Assembly (NCBI RefSeq): GCF_000719975.1
Contig: NZ_JOIJ01000002.1
Coordinates: 1 to 64,000 of the forward strand
DNA length: 64,000 bases
Reading direction: 5' to 3'
Source of the DNA: Prauserella rugosa
GTDB lineage: Bacteria > Actinomycetota > Actinomycetes > Mycobacteriales > Pseudonocardiaceae
Positions within the stretch are counted from its first letter, which is position 1, and each line of letters starts with the position of its first letter. The notes beneath the pieces are model-generated. The model was not told where the DNA came from. It saw only the letters and a program-made list of their open reading frames with translations, and did not search any database. The position numbers were made by a program, and so were the translations under genes. This document shows positions 7,558 to 26,004 of the stretch, in pieces.

Positions 7558-7899
7558 TCAGGAGCGACCGCGGCGGGCCTTCAGCTCCTCGAGCCGCTCG
7601 TTGAGCAGTTCCTCGAGCTCGGGGACCGACCGCCGCTCCAGGAGCATGTCCCAGTGCGTACGCGGGGGCTTGGCCTCCTTCTGCTCCTGCTGACCGCCCT
7701 CCACGATGTCCGACTCGCTGCCGTGCAGCCGGCACTCCCAGGTGGCGGGCACTTCGGCGTCGTCGGAGAAGGGGACCTCGAACTCGTGGCCCTTCGGACA
7801 GGCGTAACGCACGCTACGCCGGGGAGCGAGGTCGTGATTGCGGTCGGTCTCGTAGCTAACCGCTCCCAACCTGCTTCCACGGAGAACACGGTCGGCCAT
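7558..7899 (-). CDS. rbpA: RNA polymerase-binding protein RbpA
   Basis: The 113-residue protein matches the actinobacterial transcription factor that binds the principal sigma factor and RNA polymerase and stabilises open promoter complexes. Visible regions: N-terminal tail (MADRVLRGSRLGAVSYE), the core domain around VRYACPKGHEFEVPFSDDAEVPATWECR, the basic linker region (KPPRTHWDML) and the sigma-interacting helix (LERRSVPELEELLNERLEEL). It is monocistronic, bounded by a strong hairpin downstream and a possible stress promoter upstream. In Streptomyces rbpA is known to be induced by the thiol-stress sigma factor SigR, which fits the promoter seen here. Confidence 0.97.
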   Translation of the reverse strand: MADRVLRGSRLGAVSYETDRNHDLAPRRSVRYACPKGHEFEVPFSDDAEVPATWECRLHGSESDIVEGGQQEQKEAKPPRTHWDMLLERRSVPELEELLNERLEELKARRGRS

Positions 7900-16125: not shown

Positions 16126-17580
16126 TCACAGCCGCCACAGCTCGCGGGCCGAGGACAACGTCTCCCGGTACTCGGCGTAGCCGCGGCGGTACCGTTCGGC
16201 CGCCGCCGGATCGCACTCGACCGTCTGTGCGTTGGCCGCCCAGCGCTCCGCGTCGAACGGCCTGCCCAGTGCCTCGGCCGCGACGAGGACCGCGCCCCGT
16301 GCCCCGACGCCGGGATCGCTCGGGATGACGATCGGCGTGCCGAGGACGTCGGCGAAGATCTGCGTCCACGCCCTCGACCGGACGCCGCCCCCGCAGGCGT
16401 ACAGCGTCCCGGACAGTCCCGCCGCCTCGAAGCAGTGCCGGGCGGCGTAGGCGATCGACTCGCACAGCGCCCGGACGACGTCGGCAGGTCCGTGTTCGAG
16501 CGTCAGCCCCGAGAACTGCGCCCGCGCGGCCGCGTCCACGAACGGCGCGCGCTCCCCCGACGCGGACAGGAACGGCAGCGCGCGCACCCCGTCGGCTCCG
16601 GGGCCGCTCTCGGCGAGCAGGTCGTCGATGCGCTCGACCTCGATGCCGAACATGCGGCAGGCCCAATCGATGCTGGCGGTGCCGACCATCGCGGGCATGG
16701 CCCTGAGGTAGGTGCGCTCGTCCGGTGTGGCCAGGAACATTCCCGCCGGCTCGGCGTCGGCGTCGAACCACGCGTCGTCGGTCAGCACCTGACAGGCCAG
16801 CGTGGTGCCCGCGGTGAGGATGCCGTCGCCCGCCCTGCGCACGCCCGCTCCGATCGCGCTCGCGGGCAGGTCGAACGGTCCCGCGGTCACCGGTAGTCCC
16901 TCGGGAAGGCCCAGCAATTCCGCGCCGCGCGAATCGAGCGAGAAGACACTGCGCGACTTGGCCGGTTCGGCCAGCAGGTCACGCCGGTGGGACAGTCCGC
17001 ACGCGGCGATGGCACCGTCGTCGTAGCGTCGGGTGGCCGGATCGAGGAACGGCAGGGACGCGTCGGACACGTCGACGGTGATCTCACCGGTGAGGCGCTG
17101 CAGCACGGCGTCCACGCAGTAGCCCGCGACGACGGCCCGGTCGAGCGACTCGGGCTCGTGTTCGTCCAGGTGGGACAGGATCGGACCGGCGCATCCGGGG
17201 AACATGCCCGATGCCGTCCTGCGGAAGACGTCGTCGGTGACGCCGCTGGCCTGCCACGCCGCCAGCCGTTCGTTCGCGCGACCGTCCAGCCAGGACACGG
17301 CCGGCCGGACCGCAGCGCCACTCTCGTCCCGCAGCCACACGCCGTCGCCCTGCCCGGTCAGCGCGAGAGCCTCCACGCGGCCCTCGAGCGCCCGCGCGAC
17401 TTCCCTGACCACGGTCGCGACCGTGCCCACGACCTGGTCGAGGTCCTGTTCGACCCGTCCACCCGGCAGCTGGTGTACCTCCGAGGGCGTGCAGGCCTGC
17501 GCGACGGCCACGCCGGAGTCGTCGAACACGACGGCCTTGGTCAGCGACGTTCCGATGTCGACACCGATGATGTGGTTCAT
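16126..17580 (-). CDS. FGGY-family polyol/ketose kinase
   Basis: A 484-residue carbohydrate kinase. The first nucleotide-binding motif is IGVDIGTSLTKAVVFD. The segment LALTGQGDGVWLRDESG resembles that of erythritol kinases more than glycerol or xylulose kinases. WLDGRAN is the sugar-binding region. The second phosphate motif is in GDGILTAGTTLACQ, and ACGGGVRSRAWTQIFADVLG is the C-terminal FGGY signature region. ATG 17580 overlaps the stop of the hydroxyacid dehydrogenase gene by 4 nt, so it is the last gene of the leftward polyol operon. A four- or five-carbon polyol or ketose substrate is inferred from context. Confidence 0.85.
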   Translation of the reverse strand: MNHIIGVDIGTSLTKAVVFDDSGVAVAQACTPSEVHQLPGGRVEQDLDQVVGTVATVVREVARALEGRVEALALTGQGDGVWLRDESGAAVRPAVSWLDGRANERLAAWQASGVTDDVFRRTASGMFPGCAGPILSHLDEHEPESLDRAVVAGYCVDAVLQRLTGEITVDVSDASLPFLDPATRRYDDGAIAACGLSHRRDLLAEPAKSRSVFSLDSRGAELLGLPEGLPVTAGPFDLPASAIGAGVRRAGDGILTAGTTLACQVLTDDAWFDADAEPAGMFLATPDERTYLRAMPAMVGTASIDWACRMFGIEVERIDDLLAESGPGADGVRALPFLSASGERAPFVDAAARAQFSGLTLEHGPADVVRALCESIAYAARHCFEAAGLSGTLYACGGGVRSRAWTQIFADVLGTPIVIPSDPGVGARGAVLVAAEALGRPFDAERWAANAQTVECDPAAAERYRRGYAEYRETLSSARELWRL

Positions 17581-18605
17581 CGCAACACGTCCGGGTTCGC
17601 CACGTTGAGCAAGGTCTCGCCGCGCGCGTAACGGCCCACCTCCGCCGCGACGATCTCGGCGGCGCGCTGGGCGGTCTGTTTGCTGCAGCCGGCCAGGTGC
17701 GGGGTCGCGATCACGTTGGGCAGGGACCGCAGTTCCCAGTCGGCGGGTGGTGGTTCCTCGTCGTAGACGTCGAGTGCCAGCGCACCGAGTTTGCCGCTGC
17801 GCAACAGGTCCGGCAATGGCGCGTAGTCGAGCAGCCCGCCGCGTGCCGAGTTGACCAGGACCGCGCCCTCGGGAAGCAGCGCGAGCTTCTCGGCGTCGAT
17901 CAGGTGGTGGGTCTGCTCGGTCAGCCGGGCGTGCAGGCTGACCACGGGACTGCTGCGCAGCAGTTCGTCGAGTTCGACCAGGTTGGCACCGTCGGCCGCG
18001 ACCCGGTCGGCGTCGGCGTACGGGTCCGCGACGAGCACCCGGGAACCGAAGGCCACGAGGACCTTGGCCACGCGGGCGCCGATGGCGCCGTAACCGACCA
18101 GGCCGACGGTCGTACCGTCGAGTTCGAGACCCGCGTTCGGGTAGGCGTAGTAGTCCCCGCGCCACTGGCCGCCGAGCAGTTCGGCCGACGCGGTGGGGAT
18201 CCGGCGCATCGCCGCGAGGATGAGCCCGATCGCGAACTCCGCGGCCGCGGCCGCGTTCCGTCCGGGTGCGAACGTGACCGCGACGCCCGCCTCGGTCGCG
18301 GCGGTCAGGTCCACGTTCACCGGGCCGCCGCGGCACACCGAGACCAGGCGCAGGTCCGGGGCCGCCGCGAACACCTTCTTCGTGAACGGGGCCATCTGCG
18401 TGACCGCGACCTCGGCATCCCCCAGCGCCTCGATCACCTGGTCCTCGGTGCCGCTGGCTTCCTGCACCCCGCCGACGGGGCCGAAGGGCTCCACCGGCCA
18501 CGGCAGCGACAGCTCGCTGAACTCCGCGTCGGCCACGTGGGCGCGCACCGCGTCGGTCAGCAGGGTCGTGCCGACGAATTCGTCTCCTGCAGCGAGTATC
18601 CGCAA
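17577..18605 (-). CDS. D-isomer-specific 2-hydroxyacid dehydrogenase
   Basis: A 342-residue NAD-dependent dehydrogenase of the phosphoglycerate / erythronate-phosphate dehydrogenase group. The Rossmann motif GLVGYGAIGARVAKVL, the catalytic Arg in LVNSARGG, the Glu in YDEEPPP and the His in TPHLAG are all present. FAPGRNAAAAAEFAIGLIL is the typical hinge. The N-terminal substrate domain (about 1-110) has a family-typical CRGGPVNVD. It overlaps the next kinase by 4 nt. Because its neighbours handle tetrulose- or pentulose-type phosphates, a (phospho)aldonate such as erythronate 4-phosphate is a plausible substrate, but this is inference. Confidence 0.82.
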   Translation of the reverse strand: MRILAAGDEFVGTTLLTDAVRAHVADAEFSELSLPWPVEPFGPVGGVQEASGTEDQVIEALGDAEVAVTQMAPFTKKVFAAAPDLRLVSVCRGGPVNVDLTAATEAGVAVTFAPGRNAAAAAEFAIGLILAAMRRIPTASAELLGGQWRGDYYAYPNAGLELDGTTVGLVGYGAIGARVAKVLVAFGSRVLVADPYADADRVAADGANLVELDELLRSSPVVSLHARLTEQTHHLIDAEKLALLPEGAVLVNSARGGLLDYAPLPDLLRSGKLGALALDVYDEEPPPADWELRSLPNVIATPHLAGCSKQTAQRAAEIVAAEVGRYARGETLLNVANPDVLR

Positions 18606-18648
18606 CGTCGTTGTTCCTCTCGTGCTGCTTCGGGTTGTGCCGCTGGTG

Positions 18649-19113
18649 TCAGGTCGCGGCGTCCGCCTGTTCGTACTCGGTGATGTGGGCGACCTTGGCG
18701 GCGCTGGCCGAGGCCGGGTCGAAGGTGTAGCCGAGCCATTCGGTCACGATCCGCTTGGCGAGTTCCGGACCGATCACCCGGGCGCCGAACGTGATGACCT
18801 GGCAGTTGTTGGATTTCACGGAACGTTCGGCCGAGTACGAGTCGTGCGCGACCGTCGCCCGCACACCGGGGACCTTGTTGGCCGAGATGGCGACACCGAT
18901 GCCGGTGCCGCAGACGAGCACGCCGCGGTCGGCCTCCCCCGCGGCGATCTTCTCGGCGGCCGCGAGTCCCAGTACCGGATAGGCTCGGGTGTCGTCGGCG
19001 CTGTCCACGCCGACGTCGATGACCTCGCTGACCCGTTCGTCGGCCGACAGCAGGGTTCGGACCTCGTTCTTCAGTGTCACGCCTGCATCGTCGGCGGCCA
19101 CGACCACTCGCAT
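18649..19113 (-). CDS. RpiB/LacAB-family isomerase, erythrulose-4-phosphate isomerase type
   Basis: A 154-residue aldose-ketose isomerase. The catalytic Cys sits in LVCGTGIGVAISANKVPGVRA. In ordinary ribose-5-phosphate isomerase B the segment after YSAE reads R-x-HN with a catalytic His; here it is SVKSNNCQVITFGARVIG. An SNN version is what I recall from EryI of the Brucella erythritol pathway and DerI of mycobacterial threitol pathways, which convert D-erythrulose 4-phosphate to D-erythrose 4-phosphate. The N-terminal ADDAG also differs from the usual DHAG. It is directly coupled (1-nt overlap) to the DhaKL kinase gene, the pairing expected for D-erythrulose use. Confidence 0.82.
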   Translation of the reverse strand: MRVVVAADDAGVTLKNEVRTLLSADERVSEVIDVGVDSADDTRAYPVLGLAAAEKIAAGEADRGVLVCGTGIGVAISANKVPGVRATVAHDSYSAERSVKSNNCQVITFGARVIGPELAKRIVTEWLGYTFDPASASAAKVAHITEYEQADAAT

Positions 19114-20825
19114 CAGTGCTGTCCTCCCAACACGTCGCCGATCGCGGTGACGATGAGCGCGAACGACGTCGCGCCCGGATCGGCGTGTCCCTTGCTGCGT
19201 TCGGCCAGGCGTGCGGCCCTGCCCTTGCCGGGAAGCAGGTCGGCGGTGCGGGAGGCGGCGTCGGTCGCCGCCTGCGCCGCCTTGCGCCACGCGCCGGCGA
19301 GCTCGGAAGCCGCATGGGCCTGCAGCGTGGCGCGGAACGGTTCGACGGCGTCGAGCATGGTCTTCTCCCCCGGCTTGGCCTTGCCGAGGTCGACGAACGC
19401 GCGCACCGCCCTGTCCACCGCGGCGGAGACGGTTCGGGCATCCGGGTCGGCGTGGGTGCCGGCGTGGCCGATCGCCTCACGCAGGCCGGCCCCCGTCTCG
19501 GCCAGCAGCACGCCGTACAGGGCACCGGAGGCGCCCCCGGCCGCGTCGGCGAAGGCGGTGCCCGCCGCGAGCAGCCGATCTGCGACGCCTTCCGCGGTGC
19601 GGGCCGCGGCCACGGCGGCCCGCATGCCCCGGGTCATGCCCAGTCCGTGGTCGCCGTCGGCCGCCACCGCGTCCAGCCTGCCGAGTTCGGTCTCGTGCTC
19701 CTCGATCGTCCGCAGCGCCGCGGTGAGCGCGCGGTCGACGATGCCCTGGCCGTCGCCGGCGGGAGTGGAGACTGTGTCGTCGACCGTGTTCGACGGGCGG
19801 ACCGAACCGAGCGGGCGCCCGTCGCTGCGGTACCCCGGTGAGGAACACGGCGCCGCGTACAGCTCCGCCAGTTCGTCGTCGAGCACCATCGCCGACAGCG
19901 AGACGCCGGCCATGTCGAGTGAGGTGACGAACTCGCCCACCTCGATGTGCACCGGGTCCAGACCCGCGCCGACGAGACGTTCGTGCACCCGCTTGTAGGT
20001 CACGAACAGTTCCTCGTACTTGGTGCGGCCGAGACCGTTGAGCAACACGGCGACGCGGCCGTCTCCCTGTGCGGCGGGCAGGTCCTTCACCTCGGCCAGC
20101 AGTCCGTCGACGAGCTCGTCTGCCAGTTGCACCGCATCGAGCCTGCCGACTGTGCGCACGCCGGGTTCGCCGTGGATGCCCAGGCCCAGCTCCATCTCGG
20201 TGTCCTCGACGGTGAACAGCGGTGTGGCCGCGCCGGGCAGCGTGCATCCGCCGAACGCCGCACCGAAGGTGCGGGTGTGCTGATTGGCCTTGACCGCCGC
20301 CGCGTGGACGGCGTCGAGGTCGTCACCGCGTTCCGCGGCCGCGCCCGCCACCTTGAACACGAGGAAGTCACCCGCGACGCCGCGGCGGCTGGCCGGGTCG
20401 TCCACCGGGCCGCTGGCGACGTCGTCGGTGACGAGGATGGTGCGGCTGTCGATCCCCTCGGCCGCCAACCGGCGCGCCGCCAGTCCGAAGTGGAGGACAT
20501 CGCCCTGGTAGTTGCCGTAGCCGAACAGGACGCCTGCGCCGCCGTCGACGGCCCGCGCCGTGCGGTAGACCTGCTCGGCACTGGGGCTGGTGAACACGTC
20601 GCCGACGACCGCGCCGTCGGCCAGGCCGGTGCCGACCAGGCCGGCGAACGCCGGGTAGTGGCCACAGCCGCCGCCGATGACGACCGCCACCTTGCCCGGC
20701 CTCGGCGCGTCGGCGGTCACGACGCCGTAGGCGCCGGGGACCTTGCGCACCTCCCGGCCGTAGGCGGTCACGAACCCGTCGACCCAGTCGCGTTTGAACG
20801 TCTCGGCGGTTCCCAACACCGTCAT
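19113..20825 (-). CDS. Fused DhaK-DhaL ATP-dependent ketose kinase
   Basis: A 570-residue kinase. Residues 1-330 form the DhaK domain: GGGCGHYPAF, GDVFTSPSAEQV, LFGYGNYQGDVLHF, and the substrate-binding His in LGLGIHGEPG. After a short linker the DhaL nucleotide-binding domain follows, with the Mg-binding AADGDHGLGMTRG and DAAGGASGALYG. Such single-chain ATP-using enzymes phosphorylate dihydroxyacetone or, in tetritol pathways, D- or L-erythrulose (DerK/LerK). Coupling to an EryI/DerI-like isomerase favours D-erythrulose. The start overlaps the HAD gene stop by 4 nt. Confidence 0.87.
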   Translation of the reverse strand: MTVLGTAETFKRDWVDGFVTAYGREVRKVPGAYGVVTADAPRPGKVAVVIGGGCGHYPAFAGLVGTGLADGAVVGDVFTSPSAEQVYRTARAVDGGAGVLFGYGNYQGDVLHFGLAARRLAAEGIDSRTILVTDDVASGPVDDPASRRGVAGDFLVFKVAGAAAERGDDLDAVHAAAVKANQHTRTFGAAFGGCTLPGAATPLFTVEDTEMELGLGIHGEPGVRTVGRLDAVQLADELVDGLLAEVKDLPAAQGDGRVAVLLNGLGRTKYEELFVTYKRVHERLVGAGLDPVHIEVGEFVTSLDMAGVSLSAMVLDDELAELYAAPCSSPGYRSDGRPLGSVRPSNTVDDTVSTPAGDGQGIVDRALTAALRTIEEHETELGRLDAVAADGDHGLGMTRGMRAAVAAARTAEGVADRLLAAGTAFADAAGGASGALYGVLLAETGAGLREAIGHAGTHADPDARTVSAAVDRAVRAFVDLGKAKPGEKTMLDAVEPFRATLQAHAASELAGAWRKAAQAATDAASRTADLLPGKGRAARLAERSKGHADPGATSFALIVTAIGDVLGGQH

Positions 20826-21499
20826 GATCGCACCAACTCCCCGGTGAGGTAGGCGAGCAACGTCCGGCGGACCTCGTCGTTGTCCGAGGCGATCCGCGCC
20901 GCCAGTTCGAGCGCGTCGGGCTTCGGCGGGTAGGTGGGATTCGGCAGCGCCACGACCGTGAGCCCCGCGGCCGCGGCTGCCCTGATGCCGTTACTGGAGT
21001 CCTCCACCCCGAGACACCGCTGTCCCGGCACGTCGAGGCGGGCGGCCGCCTCGACGTAGACGTCCGGGCTCGGTTTGCCACGCGCCACCTCGGCACTCGA
21101 CACCGTGGCCCTGAACTCCGACGTCAGCCCGTGGGTGGCCAGCACCGCGTCGATCACGCGGCGCGCCGCCGACGAGGCGAGTGCGATGGGCACGCGTGCC
21201 CCGACGTCCCGCACCATCGCGTCGGCGCCCGGCAGCAGCGGTGCGTGACCGGCTTCGATCGAGGCGATCATGCCGTCGACCACGGCGTCCTCGACCTGCT
21301 GGACGGCCTCGGCGGTCTCGGTCCGTTCGGCCAGGTAACCGGCCCATTCGGGGGCGCTCATCCCCTGCACCCTCGCGGTGTCCTCGGGCGTCCACTCCAC
21401 TCCGTGGCGGGCGGCGTAGGCGACCCAGTTCTCTTCCCAGAGGTGTTCACTCTCGACCAGCACCCCGTCGAGGTCGAACACGACCGCGGCGAACGTCAT
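20822..21499 (-). CDS. HAD-family sugar phosphatase / phosphoglucomutase-like
   Basis: A 225-residue haloacid-dehalogenase hydrolase of the beta-phosphoglucomutase-like subfamily. Motif I FDLDGVLVESE has the nucleophilic and acid/base Asp, motif II is LASSAA, the Lys is in ARGKPSPDVY and motif III is CLGVEDSSNGIRAA. The cap domain lies between residues 20 and 85. It is the first gene of the leftward polyol operon. An AAAGGGG ribosome site is 7 nt before the ATG. It may dephosphorylate excess sugar phosphates or isomerise one. Promoter and operator lie just upstream. Confidence 0.85.
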   Translation of the reverse strand: MTFAAVVFDLDGVLVESEHLWEENWVAYAARHGVEWTPEDTARVQGMSAPEWAGYLAERTETAEAVQQVEDAVVDGMIASIEAGHAPLLPGADAMVRDVGARVPIALASSAARRVIDAVLATHGLTSEFRATVSSAEVARGKPSPDVYVEAAARLDVPGQRCLGVEDSSNGIRAAAAAGLTVVALPNPTYPPKPDALELAARIASDNDEVRRTLLAYLTGELVRS

Positions 21500-21523
21500 T
21501 CACAGCCCCTTTCACGCTCGGAC

Positions 21524-21556
21524 TGTTAAATTAACACCCGCGATGGGATTTGTCAG
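21524..21556 (-). promoter_or_regulatory. Promoter with DeoR-type operator of leftward polyol operon
   Basis: On the minus strand CTGACA (21551-21556) and TAATTT (21528-21533) are spaced exactly 17 bp. The perfect 13-bp palindrome TGTTAAATTAACA (21524-21536) covers the -10 box, so a bound repressor would block RNA polymerase. The palindrome recurs with two changes at 23171-23183. The DeoR regulator between them is the obvious ligand. Confidence 0.7.
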
Positions 21557-21635
21557 GGGTGGCCGCGTGGCAGTGTGGCCGCGAGACCGCGCGTGGACAC
21601 CACGCTCGGGTCGGCTCGATCGGGAAGGCGGGGAG

Positions 21636-22280
21636 ATGAACAAGGGCGGCGAGACGGACGAGCGCGAGGTGCGGCTCCTGCTCGTGCGGCACGGGGAAAC
21701 GACGTGGCATGCGGACAACCGCTACGCGGGCAGCAGCGACGTGGGCCTGACCGCGCGGGGGCACCGACAGGCGGCCGCACTCGCACGGTGGGCAGCGAGC
21801 TGCCACAGCCGGCCCGCTGCGGTGTACTGCTCGCCGCAGAGCAGGGCGATCGACACGGCACGACCGGTCGCGGCCGCACTGGGCACCCAGCCGGCCGTCG
21901 TGCCGGAGCTGGCCGAGGCGCACTTCGGCATCGCGGAGGGCCACACACTCGGCGAGCTGCCCGCCGACGTGGCGGCCCGGTTCCGCGCGGACCCGGTGGC
22001 ACACGCCTTCCCGGAGGCCGAACCGCCCGCCGTCGTGGCCGAACGGGGCGCGGGTGCTCTGCGCCACGTCGCGGCCCGCCACCGGGCCACCGGCTCCGAC
22101 GCTCCCGCACTGGTCGTCGCGCACAACACCCTGCTGCGCCTGTCCCTGTGCCTGCTGTTCGGAATCCCCCTGTCCACCTACCGCCGGGTGTTACCCCGAC
22201 TCGACAATGCGGCCGTCACCGAGATCGGCATACACGCAGGACACGCCAGCCTGCGACGGCTCAACGCGGCGGTGAGGTGA
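21636..22280 (+). CDS. Histidine phosphatase family protein
   Basis: A 214-residue member of the phosphoglycerate-mutase-like phosphatases. The phospho-accepting His is in LLLVRHGETTW; a Ser/Arg pair in YCSPQSRAIDTA and the second His in LVVAHNTLLRL complete the site. The typical acid residue appears in ELAEAHFG. ATG 21636 follows a purine-rich GGCGGGGAG; an upstream in-frame ATG at 21543 adds an Arg/Gly-rich leader that overlaps the control region. It is transcribed toward and ends 1 nt before the DeoR gene, so it belongs to the polyol locus, probably acting on a small sugar phosphate. Confidence 0.82.
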   Translation: MNKGGETDEREVRLLLVRHGETTWHADNRYAGSSDVGLTARGHRQAAALARWAASCHSRPAAVYCSPQSRAIDTARPVAAALGTQPAVVPELAEAHFGIAEGHTLGELPADVAARFRADPVAHAFPEAEPPAVVAERGAGALRHVAARHRATGSDAPALVVAHNTLLRLSLCLLFGIPLSTYRRVLPRLDNAAVTEIGIHAGHASLRRLNAAVR

Positions 22281-22281
22281 G

Positions 22282-23082
22282 ATGCTGGAGCCCGTGACGG
22301 AGAAGACGGACAAGGGCGCCGGACAGCGCGCGAGCAGGCAGCAACGCATCACCGACTACGTGATCGGCAACGGTTCCGCCTCGGCGGCCGAGCTGGCGGA
22401 GCTGACCGGCGTGAGCGTGATGACCGTGCACCGCGACCTGGACGAGCTCGCCCGGCGCGGTCTGCTGCGCAAGTTCCGGGGCGGGGTGTCGGCCCAGCCG
22501 TCGACGGTGTTCGAGAGCAACTCGGAGTACCGCCTCAACGCGCACGTCGAGGCAAAGGCGGCGATCGCCAGGCGGGCCCTGACCTACGTCGAGCCGGGGA
22601 TGTCGATCCTGCTCGACGATTCCACGAGCGCGCTCGCGCTGGCGAAACTGCTGACCGAGGTGACGCCGTTGACGGTTGCGACGAACTACCTGCGGGCCAT
22701 CGAGCTACTCAAGGACGTCGAGGACATCCGGCTGATCGGCATCGGCGGCGACTACTCCCCGACGCACGACGCGTTCGTGGGTATGCCGTGCCTGGAGACG
22801 GTGGAGCGGCTCACCGTGGATGCGACGTTCGTGTCCACGTCGGCCATGAACACGGACATGACCTTCCATCAGGAGCCCGAGATCGTCATGGTCAAACGGG
22901 CGATGCTGCAGAGCGCGCAGAACCGCGTGCTGCTCATGGATTCGAGCAAGATGCCGCGTACCGCACTCCACCGGCTCGCGCCGCTGACCGATTACCACCG
23001 GCTGATCGTGGACGCGAAGACGCCCGAGGCGACCGTCGAGGAACTGCGGAACCGGACCGAGGTGGACGTCGCGCCGCTCTGA
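22282..23082 (+). CDS. DeoR-family transcriptional regulator
   Basis: A 266-residue sugar-phosphate-responsive repressor. The N-terminal winged helix-turn-helix (about residues 20-75) has the family signature QQRITDYVIGNG...AAELAELTGVSVMTVHRDLDELARRGLLRKFRGG. The C-terminal DeoRC domain holds DDSTSALALAKLL and VATNYLRAI, a phosphosugar isomerase-like pocket, plus the ...VFVSTSAMN-like and LLMDSSKM motifs. It is co-transcribed with the histidine phosphatase. Two palindromic AT-rich sites, one over the promoter of the leftward operon and one over that of the permease, are its likely operators; the effector is probably a sugar phosphate made by the kinases here. Confidence 0.9.
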   Translation: MLEPVTEKTDKGAGQRASRQQRITDYVIGNGSASAAELAELTGVSVMTVHRDLDELARRGLLRKFRGGVSAQPSTVFESNSEYRLNAHVEAKAAIARRALTYVEPGMSILLDDSTSALALAKLLTEVTPLTVATNYLRAIELLKDVEDIRLIGIGGDYSPTHDAFVGMPCLETVERLTVDATFVSTSAMNTDMTFHQEPEIVMVKRAMLQSAQNRVLLMDSSKMPRTALHRLAPLTDYHRLIVDAKTPEATVEELRNRTEVDVAPL

Positions 23083-23089
23083 TCGACGG

Positions 23090-23136
23090 TTCGGCTGTCG
23101 ACGCCCTGGGCCTCGACAATCGGCTCGACAGCCGAA
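23090..23136 (+). terminator. Hairpin after DeoR gene
   Basis: Perfect 12-bp arms at 23090-23101 and 23125-23136 (TTCGGCTGTCGA and its complement) with a 23-nt loop, 8 bp after the regulator stop. There is no T-run, so termination is likely but not certain. Confidence 0.55.
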
Positions 23137-23164
23137 AGCCACCGGGAACTCGTGAAAATCACAT

Positions 23165-23194
23165 CTTGTCTGTGAACTTAACATGGGTGATGAT
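23165..23194 (+). promoter_or_regulatory. Promoter and DeoR-type operator of polyol permease
   Basis: TTGTCT (23166-23171) and GATGAT (23189-23194) are 17 bp apart. Between them lies TGTGAACTTAACA (23171-23183), which matches 11 of 13 positions of the perfect palindrome at 21524-21536. An operator between -35 and -10 is a classic repression site. Confidence 0.6.
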
Positions 23195-23221
23195 GCGGGC
23201 AGTCACATCCATGGAGGCGAG

Positions 23222-24586
23222 ATGACTGCCCAGACAACACCGACGTTGTCCGAACCCGGCGGTGGGTTCCGCGGGTTGCTCGAGAAATGGGGGCTGCCGG
23301 CGCCGTTGCTGCTCGGCTACGTCGGCCTGCTGCTGTTCATGATCGGCGACGGAGTCGAGTCGGGCTTCATCGCACCGTTCATGGCCGATCACGGCGCCGG
23401 TGACGACATCCGCGCCTCGTACGTCATCACGGTCTACGGCGTCGCGGTGATGCTGGCGTCGTGGCTGTCGGGCGCGCTGTCCGAACTGTGGGGCCCGCGC
23501 CGGGTCATGATGCTCGGCTTCGCCATCTGGATCGTGTTCGACGTGCTGTTCCTCGCCGTCGCGGTCAGTGGTGAGAACTACGCACTGATGATGGTGTTCT
23601 ACGGCATCCGCGGATTCGGCTACCCGATGTTCGCCTTCGGGTTCCTCGTGTGGATCACCGCCGTGGCACCGATCGCGCGGCTCGGAGCCGCCGTCGGCTG
23701 GTTCTACTTCGCCTTCACCGGTGGCCTGCCGACGCTGGGCTCCCTGGTCGCCAGCTTCACCAACCCGATCTTCGGCCATTACGGCACGTTGTGGTTGTCG
23801 ATCGCCATCCTCGGCGCGGGCGGCCTGGTGTGCCTGCTCGGTGTCCGCGAGCGCACGGGCTACAGCAGGCTCGCCCCGCCGGAGGTCAAACCGGTGCAGA
23901 GCCTCATGTCCAGCGTGTCGATCGCGTGGAAGAAGCCCCAGGTCGGCCTCGGGATGATCGCCCGGGTCATCAACACCGCACCCGAGTTCGGCATGCTCGT
24001 GTTCTTCCCGACCATCTTCGCCCACCAGATCGGGTTCGGTGAGGGCCGATGGCTGCTGCTGGTGTCGGTCATCTACGGCACCAACATCGTGTTCAACCTG
24101 ATCTTCGGGGTGCTGTCGGACAAGATCGGATGGCGCACGACGATCTTCTGGTTCGGCGCGGTGGGCTGTGCCGTCTCGATTCTGCTGCTGTACTTCGTCC
24201 CACTGGCACTCGGCGCCGACTACTACTGGGTCGCGCTGCTCGTCGGCGCCCTGTACGGCGCGACGCTCGCCGGGTTCGTCCCGATCTCGGCGCTGCTCCC
24301 GTCGTTGGCTCCGGAGAACAAGGGCGGGGCGATGGCGTTGCTGAACCTCGGTGCCGGTGCGGCCACGTTCGTCGGGCCCGCGATCGTGAGCCTGTTCCTC
24401 GGCCCGGCAGGCGCCGCGGGCGTGGTGATCATCTTCTCCGCGCTGTACGTCGTGGCCGCGGTCATCGTCCGTTTCCTCAAGCTGCCCGAGGTCACCGAGC
24501 AGGCGCTGGAGAAGGACGCCAACCTCCAGGAGGTCACACACGAGGTGACACAGGAGGCCGGGCCGGACGTCGCGGTGCGCCGGTGA
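23222..24586 (+). CDS. Polyol permease (RbtT/DalT/CsbX-type MFS)
   Basis: A 454-residue 12-helix transporter. GYVGLLLFMIGDGVESGFIAPFM in helix 1 is the hallmark of ribitol/arabinitol permeases. Also visible: SGALSELWGPRRVMMLG between helices 2 and 3, YGIRGFGYPMFAFGFLVWI, RTGYSRLAPPE in the central loop, and GVLSDKIGWR. ATG 23222 has an excellent GGAGG site at 5 nt; an in-frame upstream ATG at 23183 lies on the operator. It is followed with a 4-nt overlap by a second sugar kinase, so import and phosphorylation are coupled. Substrate is likely a C4-C5 polyol or ketose. Confidence 0.88.
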   Translation: MTAQTTPTLSEPGGGFRGLLEKWGLPAPLLLGYVGLLLFMIGDGVESGFIAPFMADHGAGDDIRASYVITVYGVAVMLASWLSGALSELWGPRRVMMLGFAIWIVFDVLFLAVAVSGENYALMMVFYGIRGFGYPMFAFGFLVWITAVAPIARLGAAVGWFYFAFTGGLPTLGSLVASFTNPIFGHYGTLWLSIAILGAGGLVCLLGVRERTGYSRLAPPEVKPVQSLMSSVSIAWKKPQVGLGMIARVINTAPEFGMLVFFPTIFAHQIGFGEGRWLLLVSVIYGTNIVFNLIFGVLSDKIGWRTTIFWFGAVGCAVSILLLYFVPLALGADYYWVALLVGALYGATLAGFVPISALLPSLAPENKGGAMALLNLGAGAATFVGPAIVSLFLGPAGAAGVVIIFSALYVVAAVIVRFLKLPEVTEQALEKDANLQEVTHEVTQEAGPDVAVRR

Positions 24587-26004
24587 CGGTCGTCGGGATC
24601 GACGTCGCGACCGCGGGGGTCCGTGCCTCCGCGGTCGCCGACGACGGCACGGTGGTGGCCCGCGCCTCGGCCCCGCTGCCCGCACCGGTGCGTACCGCCG
24701 GAGGCCGGAGCGAGCAGGACGCCCGAGCGTGGTGGCCCGCGGTGGAGTCGGCGCTGTGGCAGGTCTGCGCGGCCCCCGAGGTGGGCACAGTGGACGCGGT
24801 GGCGGTGGCAGCGACGTCCGGCACGATCGTCGCCGTCGACCGCCACGGCACGCCCGTCTCCCCCGCACTGATGTACGACGACCGCCGCGCCGCGCGGGAG
24901 AACGCCACGGCAGCGACCGTGGGCGCCGACCGGTGGGACGCGATGGGAACGGCGGTCACGCCCACGATGGCACTCGGGCGGATCGCCTGGTTGGCGCGGG
25001 AGTACCCCGACGCGGCGGGCGTGGCGCACACGCCGGACGTCATCGGCACGGCGCTGCTGGGCGAGCCCGTGCCCGTGGACTGGTCGCACGCGCTCAAGAG
25101 CGGTTACGACCCGGGAGTGCGCACCTGGCCGTGGGAGGTGTTCGACGCGCTCGGTGTCCCGCCGTCCTGGCTGCCCGGCGTCGTGGCGCCGACGTGTGTC
25201 CTCGGCGAGACACCGCGGCCCGTCGCAGGGCTCCCGAAGGGCTGTCGCGTCGTGGCCGGCATGACCGACGGCTGCGCCGCACAGATCGCCACGGGCGCGG
25301 TCTCACCGGGCCGGTTCGCCGGCATCCTCGGCACCACCTACGTCCTCAAAGGCGTCACCAGGCACCGCCTCGTCGACCCCGCGGGCGCGGTGTACAGCCA
25401 CCGTCATCCCGACGGTTGGTGGCTGGCCGGAGGCGCGTCGAACACCGGCGGGGCGGGGGTGACCGGCGACCTGCGGCGCCTCGACGCGGCCGCGGCCGCT
25501 CGGGGCCCCGCCGGTATGGTCGCCTATCCCCTGACCGGGACGGGCGAGCGGTTCCCGTTCTCGGCCGGCGATGCCCGCGGGTTCGTGCTCGGCGAGCCGT
25601 CCGACGAGGTGGAGCTGCACCGCGCGCGTCTGGAAGGCGTCGCGTTCCTCGAACGCCTGGCGCTGGAGACCATGCGCTCGCTCGGAGCCACAGTCGAGGG
25701 TCCGCTGCTCGCCGCGGGCGGTGGGAGCGCGAGCGCGCTGTGGAACCGGATCCGGGCCACGGTCACGGGCCTGAGCCTGCAGGTCGCGGAGCACGCGGAG
25801 ACCGCCTACGGCGCCGCGTTGCTGGCCGCGGCCGGAACGGCGCCGGGTGGATTGGACCACCTCGTCGCGCGGGCGGCCACACGTGGCACGGTCGTCGACC
25901 CCGAGCAGGCGGAGGCCGAGGCTCTCGAGGCGTCGTACCTGCGGTTCGTCGGCGAGCTCGGCAGGCGCGGATGGCTCGACCGCGTCCCGATGGTTGAACG
26001 GTGA
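24583..26004 (+). CDS. FGGY-family carbohydrate kinase
   Basis: A 473-residue kinase of a different branch from the one at 16126-17580. The first phosphate-binding strand is VVGIDVATAGVRASAVADDG. AATSGTIVAVDRHG and ALMYDDRRA form the sugar-contacting segment, similar to ribulokinase or xylulokinase-like proteins. GILGTTYVLKG is the second phosphate motif, and LAAGGGSASALWNRIRATVTG the C-terminal signature. GTG 24583 overlaps the permease stop (GTGA). Presence of two FGGY kinases and one DhaKL kinase in one regulon suggests that more than one ketose or polyol is used. Confidence 0.83.
   Translation: MTVVGIDVATAGVRASAVADDGTVVARASAPLPAPVRTAGGRSEQDARAWWPAVESALWQVCAAPEVGTVDAVAVAATSGTIVAVDRHGTPVSPALMYDDRRAARENATAATVGADRWDAMGTAVTPTMALGRIAWLAREYPDAAGVAHTPDVIGTALLGEPVPVDWSHALKSGYDPGVRTWPWEVFDALGVPPSWLPGVVAPTCVLGETPRPVAGLPKGCRVVAGMTDGCAAQIATGAVSPGRFAGILGTTYVLKGVTRHRLVDPAGAVYSHRHPDGWWLAGGASNTGGAGVTGDLRRLDAAAAARGPAGMVAYPLTGTGERFPFSAGDARGFVLGEPSDEVELHRARLEGVAFLERLALETMRSLGATVEGPLLAAGGGSASALWNRIRATVTGLSLQVAEHAETAYGAALLAAAGTAPGGLDHLVARAATRGTVVDPEQAEAEALEASYLRFVGELGRRGWLDRVPMVER

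Follow-up and report, generated by a model that had tools for sequence, protein, structure and literature searches.

A 64-kb window of the Prauserella rugosa genome (the whole stretch analyzed here) carries a DeoR/GlpR-family regulator gene within a cluster of carbohydrate-related genes transcribed in both directions. The leftward operon, on the minus strand, runs in the order HAD-family phosphatase (20822-21499), fused DhaK-DhaL dihydroxyacetone-kinase family protein (19113-20825), RpiB-type sugar-phosphate isomerase (18649-19113, with an ATG chosen as start), D-isomer specific 2-hydroxyacid dehydrogenase (17577-18605), and FGGY carbohydrate kinase 1 (16126-17580, starting at the first ATG; family searches used one extra residue), with adjacent genes either overlapping by a few bases or separated by no more than 43. 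On the plus strand, a histidine phosphatase gene (His_Phos_1; 21636-22280) sits directly upstream of deoR (22282-23082; 266 amino acids), followed by an MFS permease gene of the RbtT/DalT/CsbX family (23222-24586, with its start set at 23222 and an in-frame ATG also at 23183) and FGGY carbohydrate kinase 2 (24583-26004), the last two overlapping by 4 bases. GC content is 70.7% across the window and 71.3% across 16126-26004, in keeping with the ~70% given in the first-pass annotation, which had proposed a bidirectional polyol regulon with a DeoR gene between two shared operator sites. The DeoR gene does lie between the sites, along with a second rightward gene, that of the histidine phosphatase, which the first-pass annotation passed over.

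The family assignments of these proteins come from Pfam and NCBIfam matches. The RpiB-like protein exceeds the cutoff of TIGR02133 (RPI_actino; 186.7 versus 168.2) and falls below that of the D-erythrulose-4-phosphate isomerase DerI (NF051858; 166.3 bits, cutoff 240), and the permease belongs to TIGR00897 (RbtT/DalT/CsbX; 532.8 versus 375 bits). Both FGGY kinases score below the xylulokinase XylB model (TIGR01312, cutoff 380.25 bits; 211.3 for kinase 1 and 171 for kinase 2). The regulator has HTH_DeoR and DeoRC domains (PF08220, 46.4 bits, cutoff 21; PF00455, 139.6 bits, cutoff 31.8) and is below the cutoff of all 11 NCBIfam equivalog families listed, which include YgbI, SrlR, AgaR, UlaR, DeoR, and haloarchaeal GlpR; its best match is NF040890 (YgbI; 125.2 versus 400 bits). 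Only two DeoRC proteins were found in this genome, the second encoded at C5:77788. The motif DSSK begins at residue 220 of the cluster DeoR, and D220 and K223 are kept in all 33 aligned sequences, the window's included. By analogy with the sensor domains of LacR and UlaR, in which an Asp/Lys pair three residues apart contacts the inducer (excerpted text of PMC10991401), these residues would form the inducer-contact pair.

Two AT-rich 13-mers accompany these genes. The core of operator 1, TGTTAAATTAACA (21524-21536, minus strand; TGTTAATTTAACA on the HAD strand), lies 24 bases upstream of the HAD start codon that opens the leftward operon, and that of operator 2, TGTGAACTTAACA (23171-23183, plus strand), lies between the DeoR gene and the rightward permease-FGGY kinase 2 pair; both occur exactly where first reported and match at 11 of 13 bases, differing at positions 4 and 7. 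They had been described as the only such AT-rich palindromes noticed in the locus. Taking as AT-rich near-palindromes the 13-mers in which 5 or more of the 6 pairs are complementary and 8 or more bases are A or T, we found five in the window, among which only these two have TGT...ACA ends and only the one at 21524 is a perfect palindrome. With up to 2 mismatches, TGTKAAMTTAACA occurs in the 64-kb window at these two sites alone (four strand-wise matches versus 0.15 expected from 100 shuffles), a count that is weak by itself because the pattern was derived from the two sites. Across the 5,218,148-base assembly, matches with 0 to 1 mismatch likewise fall only at these two sites, and eight other places match with 2 mismatches each.

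The two cores stand in different promoter registers. Conservation across species points to a leftward promoter, CTGACA-N17-TAATTT (21528-21556, minus strand), with GTGACA-N17-TAATTT in many relatives, and to a rightward promoter, TTGTCT-N17-GATGAT (23166-23194, plus strand), which takes the form TTGNNN-N17-CATGAT in relatives, with operator 2 in the spacer and TTG and CATGAT kept. A scan for sigma-70 consensus promoters and terminators listed neither, so the hexamers are drawn from this conservation. The idea that each site sits inside a -35/-10 pair fits operator 2, whose core lies between the hexamers with its first base being the last base of the -35 element; operator 1 instead overlaps the putative leftward -10 element, which falls within it. 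Between the deoR stop codon and operator 2 there is also a perfect 12-nt inverted repeat, TTCGGCTGTCGA and TCGACAGCCGAA, 23 nt apart (23090-23136), which is possibly a terminator-like stem, though absent from the terminator scan.

Alignment of the cores across loci indicates that the predicted operator is longer than 13 bp, with extra half-sites 20 bp to either side. We aligned 30 operator 1 and 32 operator 2 sites on the core alone, having chosen them because a 13-mer with no more than 2 mismatches stood where an operator was expected; as these loci are related, the resulting counts and z-values are not independent. A further TTMACA appears 20 bp upstream of the one in the core (z = 4.0 at operator 1 and 6.6 at operator 2), and a further TGTKAA 20 bp downstream of its core counterpart (z = 4.3 and 4.5). 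Further offset peaks at operator 1 comprise the right half at -27 (z = 3.7), which is the -35 hexamer, and the left half at +32 and -21 (z = 3.0 and 2.8); peaks at +/-5 are the core overlapping itself. In the window, the extended operator 1 would span 21511-21549 (minus strand), with outer half-sites ATCCCA on the HAD-distal side (4 of 6 matches) and CGTGAA on the HAD-proximal side (5 of 6). Exactly 20 bp upstream of operator 2 lies a second, weaker palindrome, CGTGAAAATCACA (23151-23163, plus strand), nearly complete, whose right half is the conserved outer half-site of operator 2. Counting against the extended reading, the +20 half-site overlaps the -10 element at operator 2 and abuts the ribosome-binding region at operator 1. 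The spacing of the array is the same at both operators although their promoter registers differ. Operator 1 sites in which the inner right half is weak tend to have a strong outer half (rho = -0.90; 30 related sites), a trend absent at operator 2 (rho = 0.16; 32 sites).

Conservation of the palindromes in orthologous loci, on which the first-pass annotation had staked its proposal, is borne out in Prauserella, Amycolatopsis, Nocardiopsis, Halopolyspora, Saccharopolyspora, Saccharomonospora, Streptomonospora, and Streptomyces, and in a variant form in part of Kribbella. Both sites are kept in the window, four Prauserella, nine cluster-bearing Amycolatopsis, and four Nocardiopsis loci, most Saccharopolyspora loci, and the split genomes described below. 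Among 150 same-family genomes, 38 carry the exact palindrome TGTKAANTTMACA, at 45 places in all, compared with 15 places for the reversed control pattern, and its occurrence is not random: a DeoR relative lies within 1.5 kb at 33 of the 45 and within 10 kb at 38, the remaining 7 having none on the same contig. Presence of a nearby site also tracks regulator identity. For 63 DeoR places of at least 52% identity (one per genome, with paralogues of at most 46% dropped), an exact palindrome lies within 1.5 kb of deoR in 21 of 22 genomes at 70% identity or above, 5 of 11 at 60 to 70%, and 0 of 30 below 60%. Altogether, 26 of the 33 genomes (out of 150) with a DeoR of at least 60% identity have such a palindrome, and in 6 of the remaining 7 the matrix picks out operators at the cluster. 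In two lower-identity genera, the palindrome is 2 to 7 kb from deoR and, in the one genome examined from each, directly before FGGY kinase 2, in an FGGY2-phosphatase unit (L091) or a single operon (L092); both are further arrangements that keep the sites. G009 has an orphan DeoR at 80% identity, yet the exact palindrome is absent genome-wide. The same genome holds a diverged cluster (L144, G009:C11; FGGY1 43%, FGGY2 47%, permease 59%, phosphatase 50%, 2-hydroxyacid dehydrogenase 56% identity) with its own DeoR (42%) and without an operator of this kind.

A 27-position matrix, for which the window and 13 loci of Prauserella and Amycolatopsis supplied 28 training sites, was applied to 92 held-out loci (L019-L105 and L138-L147 minus training loci; L091-L104 were taken partly for carrying the exact palindrome, and L145 and L146 repeat L031 and L035). 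No score reached the threshold of 18 on either strand of 5.0 Mb of scrambled sequence (top score, 16.6), which consisted of six first-order scrambles of 44 test loci chosen without the orphan, Kribbella, Jiangella, and Phytoactinopolyspora loci. If a cluster locus is defined as one with at least two cluster genes, 56 of the 72 such held-out loci have an operator no more than 300 bp upstream of a regulon gene, whereas none of the 20 cluster-less loci has one there. Of all matches in the 92 loci, 85 of 90 are upstream of regulon genes, and unlinked matches occur in three cluster-less loci, all from the L091-L104 group. The 16 cluster loci lacking an operator by this rule comprise 6 from Jiangella or Phytoactinopolyspora, 6 of the 15 from Kribbella, 3 from Streptomyces (one with a match farther upstream than 300 bp), and G009. 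Streptomyces loci with a match have the right-hand site only at this threshold; seven show weaker left-hand matches (14.5 to 17.4), and scores of at least 14 arise by chance about 0.13 times per 20 kb in scrambles scored with a different matrix. Given the genome-wide, cross-genome, and scrambled-sequence controls, we ruled out a chance origin of the palindromes.

Plasmids extend this distribution. A 700-kb linear plasmid of Streptomyces sp. NBC_01727 (L149), found apart from the held-out set, carries the core cluster in the order FGGY, 2-hydroxyacid dehydrogenase, phosphatase, DeoR, FGGY, with a site scoring 32.9 between DeoR and the second kinase, a location suggesting that the regulon may be mobile between strains. 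Plasmids of Rhizobium and Rubrobacter with weaker DeoR relatives have no operator at threshold. The Rubrobacter indicoceani plasmid (L150) does have a sub-threshold palindrome (14.9) at 7882, some 100 bp upstream of a DeoR gene (43% identity) that adjoins transketolase, FGGY kinase, and HAD genes.

The sites also follow their genes through rearrangement. In L017 and L018, the permease gene is inverted and has its own operator. Five genomes carry an isolated deoR: G038, G097, G072, and G134, all of the genus Actinopolyspora (a G038 contig matches A. xinjiangensis), and G005, a contig of which matches Halosaccharopolyspora lacisalsi. Here deoR is found on a separate contig or, for G072, at a distance of about 2.2 Mb, and the enzyme clusters retain operators ahead of both HAD and the permease (full-matrix scores, 23.7 to 31.6); the three isolated DeoR loci examined (L145-L147) have no match above 13. 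Because the operators stay with the enzymes when deoR is elsewhere, they are unlikely to be mere neighbors of deoR. In the same genus as the Actinopolyspora split genomes, G133 and G149 lack a DeoR relative at an E value of 1e-40, as well as relatives of the 2-hydroxyacid dehydrogenase and FGGY1 exceeding 40% identity; the exact palindrome is absent from G149 and present once in G133, where the surrounding 18 kb holds no cluster gene.

This comparison, in which sites separate cluster from cluster-less held-out loci and move with the genes, supports the single regulon originally predicted, with HAD, DhaKL, RpiB-like, 2-hydroxyacid dehydrogenase, and FGGY genes leftward and the permease and second FGGY kinase rightward. 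We consider it highly probable, from comparative sequence evidence, that the cluster DeoR is a local repressor of that regulon acting through both operators. The scheme we infer for binding, repression, oligomeric state, autoregulation, inducer, and substrate is as follows. Without inducer, DeoR would bind operator 1 and cover the -10 element of the leftward operon (HAD, DhaKL, RpiB, 2-hydroxyacid dehydrogenase, FGGY kinase 1), probably also controlling the divergent phosphatase-deoR transcript and thereby its own synthesis, and at operator 2 it would occupy the spacer of the promoter that serves the permease and FGGY kinase 2. Repression is suggested by the position of the sites, one over a promoter hexamer and the other between two. 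The kinases would make a phosphorylated ketose or polyol that binds the DeoRC domain and releases DeoR from the DNA, sugar-phosphate release being suggested by D220 and K223 at the LacR and UlaR inducer positions (PMC10991401, in excerpt). The central palindrome TGTKAA-N-TTMACA with half-sites at 20 bp would suit two dimers, or one tetramer, contacting the same face of the DNA at a distance of about two turns. Excerpts of PMC10991401 report tetramers for UlaR on DNA and for AgaR and an octamer for DeoR, and such oligomers fit the 20-bp array. We give roughly even odds to the fuller proposal in which a DeoR tetramer reads four half-sites arranged almost symmetrically over 39 bp, TTMACA-N7-TGTKAA-N-TTMACA-N7-TGTKAA, and this array is kept in two different promoter registers, with regulator gene and operators unlinked in some lineages and both persisting.

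Other readings of the sites account for some of these observations. The palindromes might be bound by another regulator, for instance the second DeoR-family protein or a global factor, with proximity to deoR reflecting cluster conservation only; the genome does encode a second DeoRC protein (C5:77788), and in the five split genomes the sites are far from deoR. We find this improbable, however, since the sites are confined to the cluster with no further place at 0 to 1 mismatch in the genome, the nearby site follows DeoR identity (21/22, 5/11, 0/30), and G133 and G149 lack both DeoR and close 2-hydroxyacid dehydrogenase and FGGY1 relatives, with no exact palindrome in G149 and, in G133, only the one described above.

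Control of one side only, left or right, with the other palindrome a relic, would suit loci with a single operator at threshold, such as the right-hand site of Streptomyces, but it appears very unlikely given that both sites persist in the window, Prauserella, Amycolatopsis, Nocardiopsis, most Saccharopolyspora, and the split genomes; the weaker left-hand matches in seven Streptomyces loci lean the same way, in a score range also reached by chance at the rate given above. Least credible of all, and rejected here, is the view that conservation reflects core promoter elements without a repressor operator. The putative -10 hexamer TAATTT inside operator 1 and the conserved TTG and CATGAT flanking operator 2 would agree with it, but the same palindrome and half-site spacing recur while the promoter register changes, and operator 2 is strongly conserved inside a spacer where a promoter does not need it.

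For the DeoR regulon, a pentitol or a related polyol or ketose is the likely substrate, as suggested by the membership of the permease in the RbtT/DalT/CsbX family. The term "polyol" is plausible on the strength of that permease, but the case for it is weaker than was implied, because no polyol dehydrogenase was recognized among the ten window proteins scanned with Pfam and NCBIfam. In Halopolyspora (L030), the gene after the permease encodes an SDR, and in L017 a class II aldolase, a protein not represented among the ten scanned, is encoded after FGGY kinase 1. The solved structures nearest to FGGY kinase 2 are those of SePSK and AtXK-1, a distant match (entries named in PMC4880283), and assays reported in that paper suggested D-ribulose phosphorylation by SePSK. 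This distant likeness did not yield a substrate assignment.

As far as the excerpted sources extend, the nearest known locus is rbtT-mtlD-sixA-xylB-atlR of Corynebacterium glutamicum, which shares with the window an RbtT-type permease, a histidine phosphatase (sixA), an FGGY kinase (xylB), and a DeoR-type repressor. We take SixA to be of the same family as the window histidine phosphatase. The window goes beyond that locus in having DhaKL, RpiB, 2-hydroxyacid dehydrogenase, HAD, and a second FGGY kinase, and no mannitol/arabitol dehydrogenase was recognized among the ten window proteins scanned; the likeness is one of gene content. Excerpts describe induction of rbtT, mtlD, sixA, xylB, and atlR by arabitol (PMC6685057) and AtlR as repressor of the arabitol and mannitol genes (PMC7999487). 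RhaR regulons, predicted by comparative genomics in the DeoR family, are likewise local sugar regulons with conserved motifs upstream of catabolic genes, but, in the excerpted text of PMC3870299, RhaR sites are two imperfect direct repeats at 10 to 11 bp, unlike the sites seen here, where a 13-bp palindrome forms an inverted repeat and the outer half-sites stand 20 bp away. Escherichia coli UlaR, DeoR, and AgaR and Lactococcus lactis LacR share the family and the Asp/Lys pair with the window protein (D220/K223; PMC10991401, excerpted), yet their target genes differ, and the window protein is far below the UlaR, DeoR, and AgaR NCBIfam cutoffs. The Rhizobium plasmid locus (L148) resembles the window in that polyol-type genes adjoin a DeoR relative of 42.6% identity; its DeoR relatives are surrounded by genes for FGGY kinases, a sugar ABC transporter, and a glycerol-3-phosphate dehydrogenase, but it differs in lacking an operator of this kind (best score, 13.1). 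It presumably resembles the rhizobial erythritol locus.

Local DeoR-family sugar regulons are well known, and the extended half-site array is the newest part of this description. No description of the operator was recognized among the matches listed by a literature search that covered few subscription journals. Three papers contain one of five operator 13-mers and, judging by title and abstract opening, concern other subjects. A guess from two sites has become a transferable regulon whose matrix tells loci with the cluster from those without it across many genera of actinobacteria, with a defined set of genes for a pathway acting on a ketose or polyol: two FGGY kinases, DhaKL, RpiB, 2-hydroxyacid dehydrogenase, and HAD and histidine phosphatases. 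The array offers a specific model of how a DeoR-family oligomer may read DNA, and the lineages with deoR unlinked from its operators amount to a natural experiment.

Several further observations concern individual loci. High-scoring palindromes at L097:8996 (G019, 26.5) and L094:8970 (G115, 20.9) are in genomes without a DeoR relative at an E value of 1e-40. A 2-hydroxyacid dehydrogenase match in L110 (G069:C1:2206647-2207663) contains one in-frame TGA. In six Amycolatopsis loci (L015, L016, L020, L022, L023, and L027), minus-strand matrix matches scoring 13 to 22 lie about 180 bp into the permease gene and may represent an auxiliary operator or a coding constraint.
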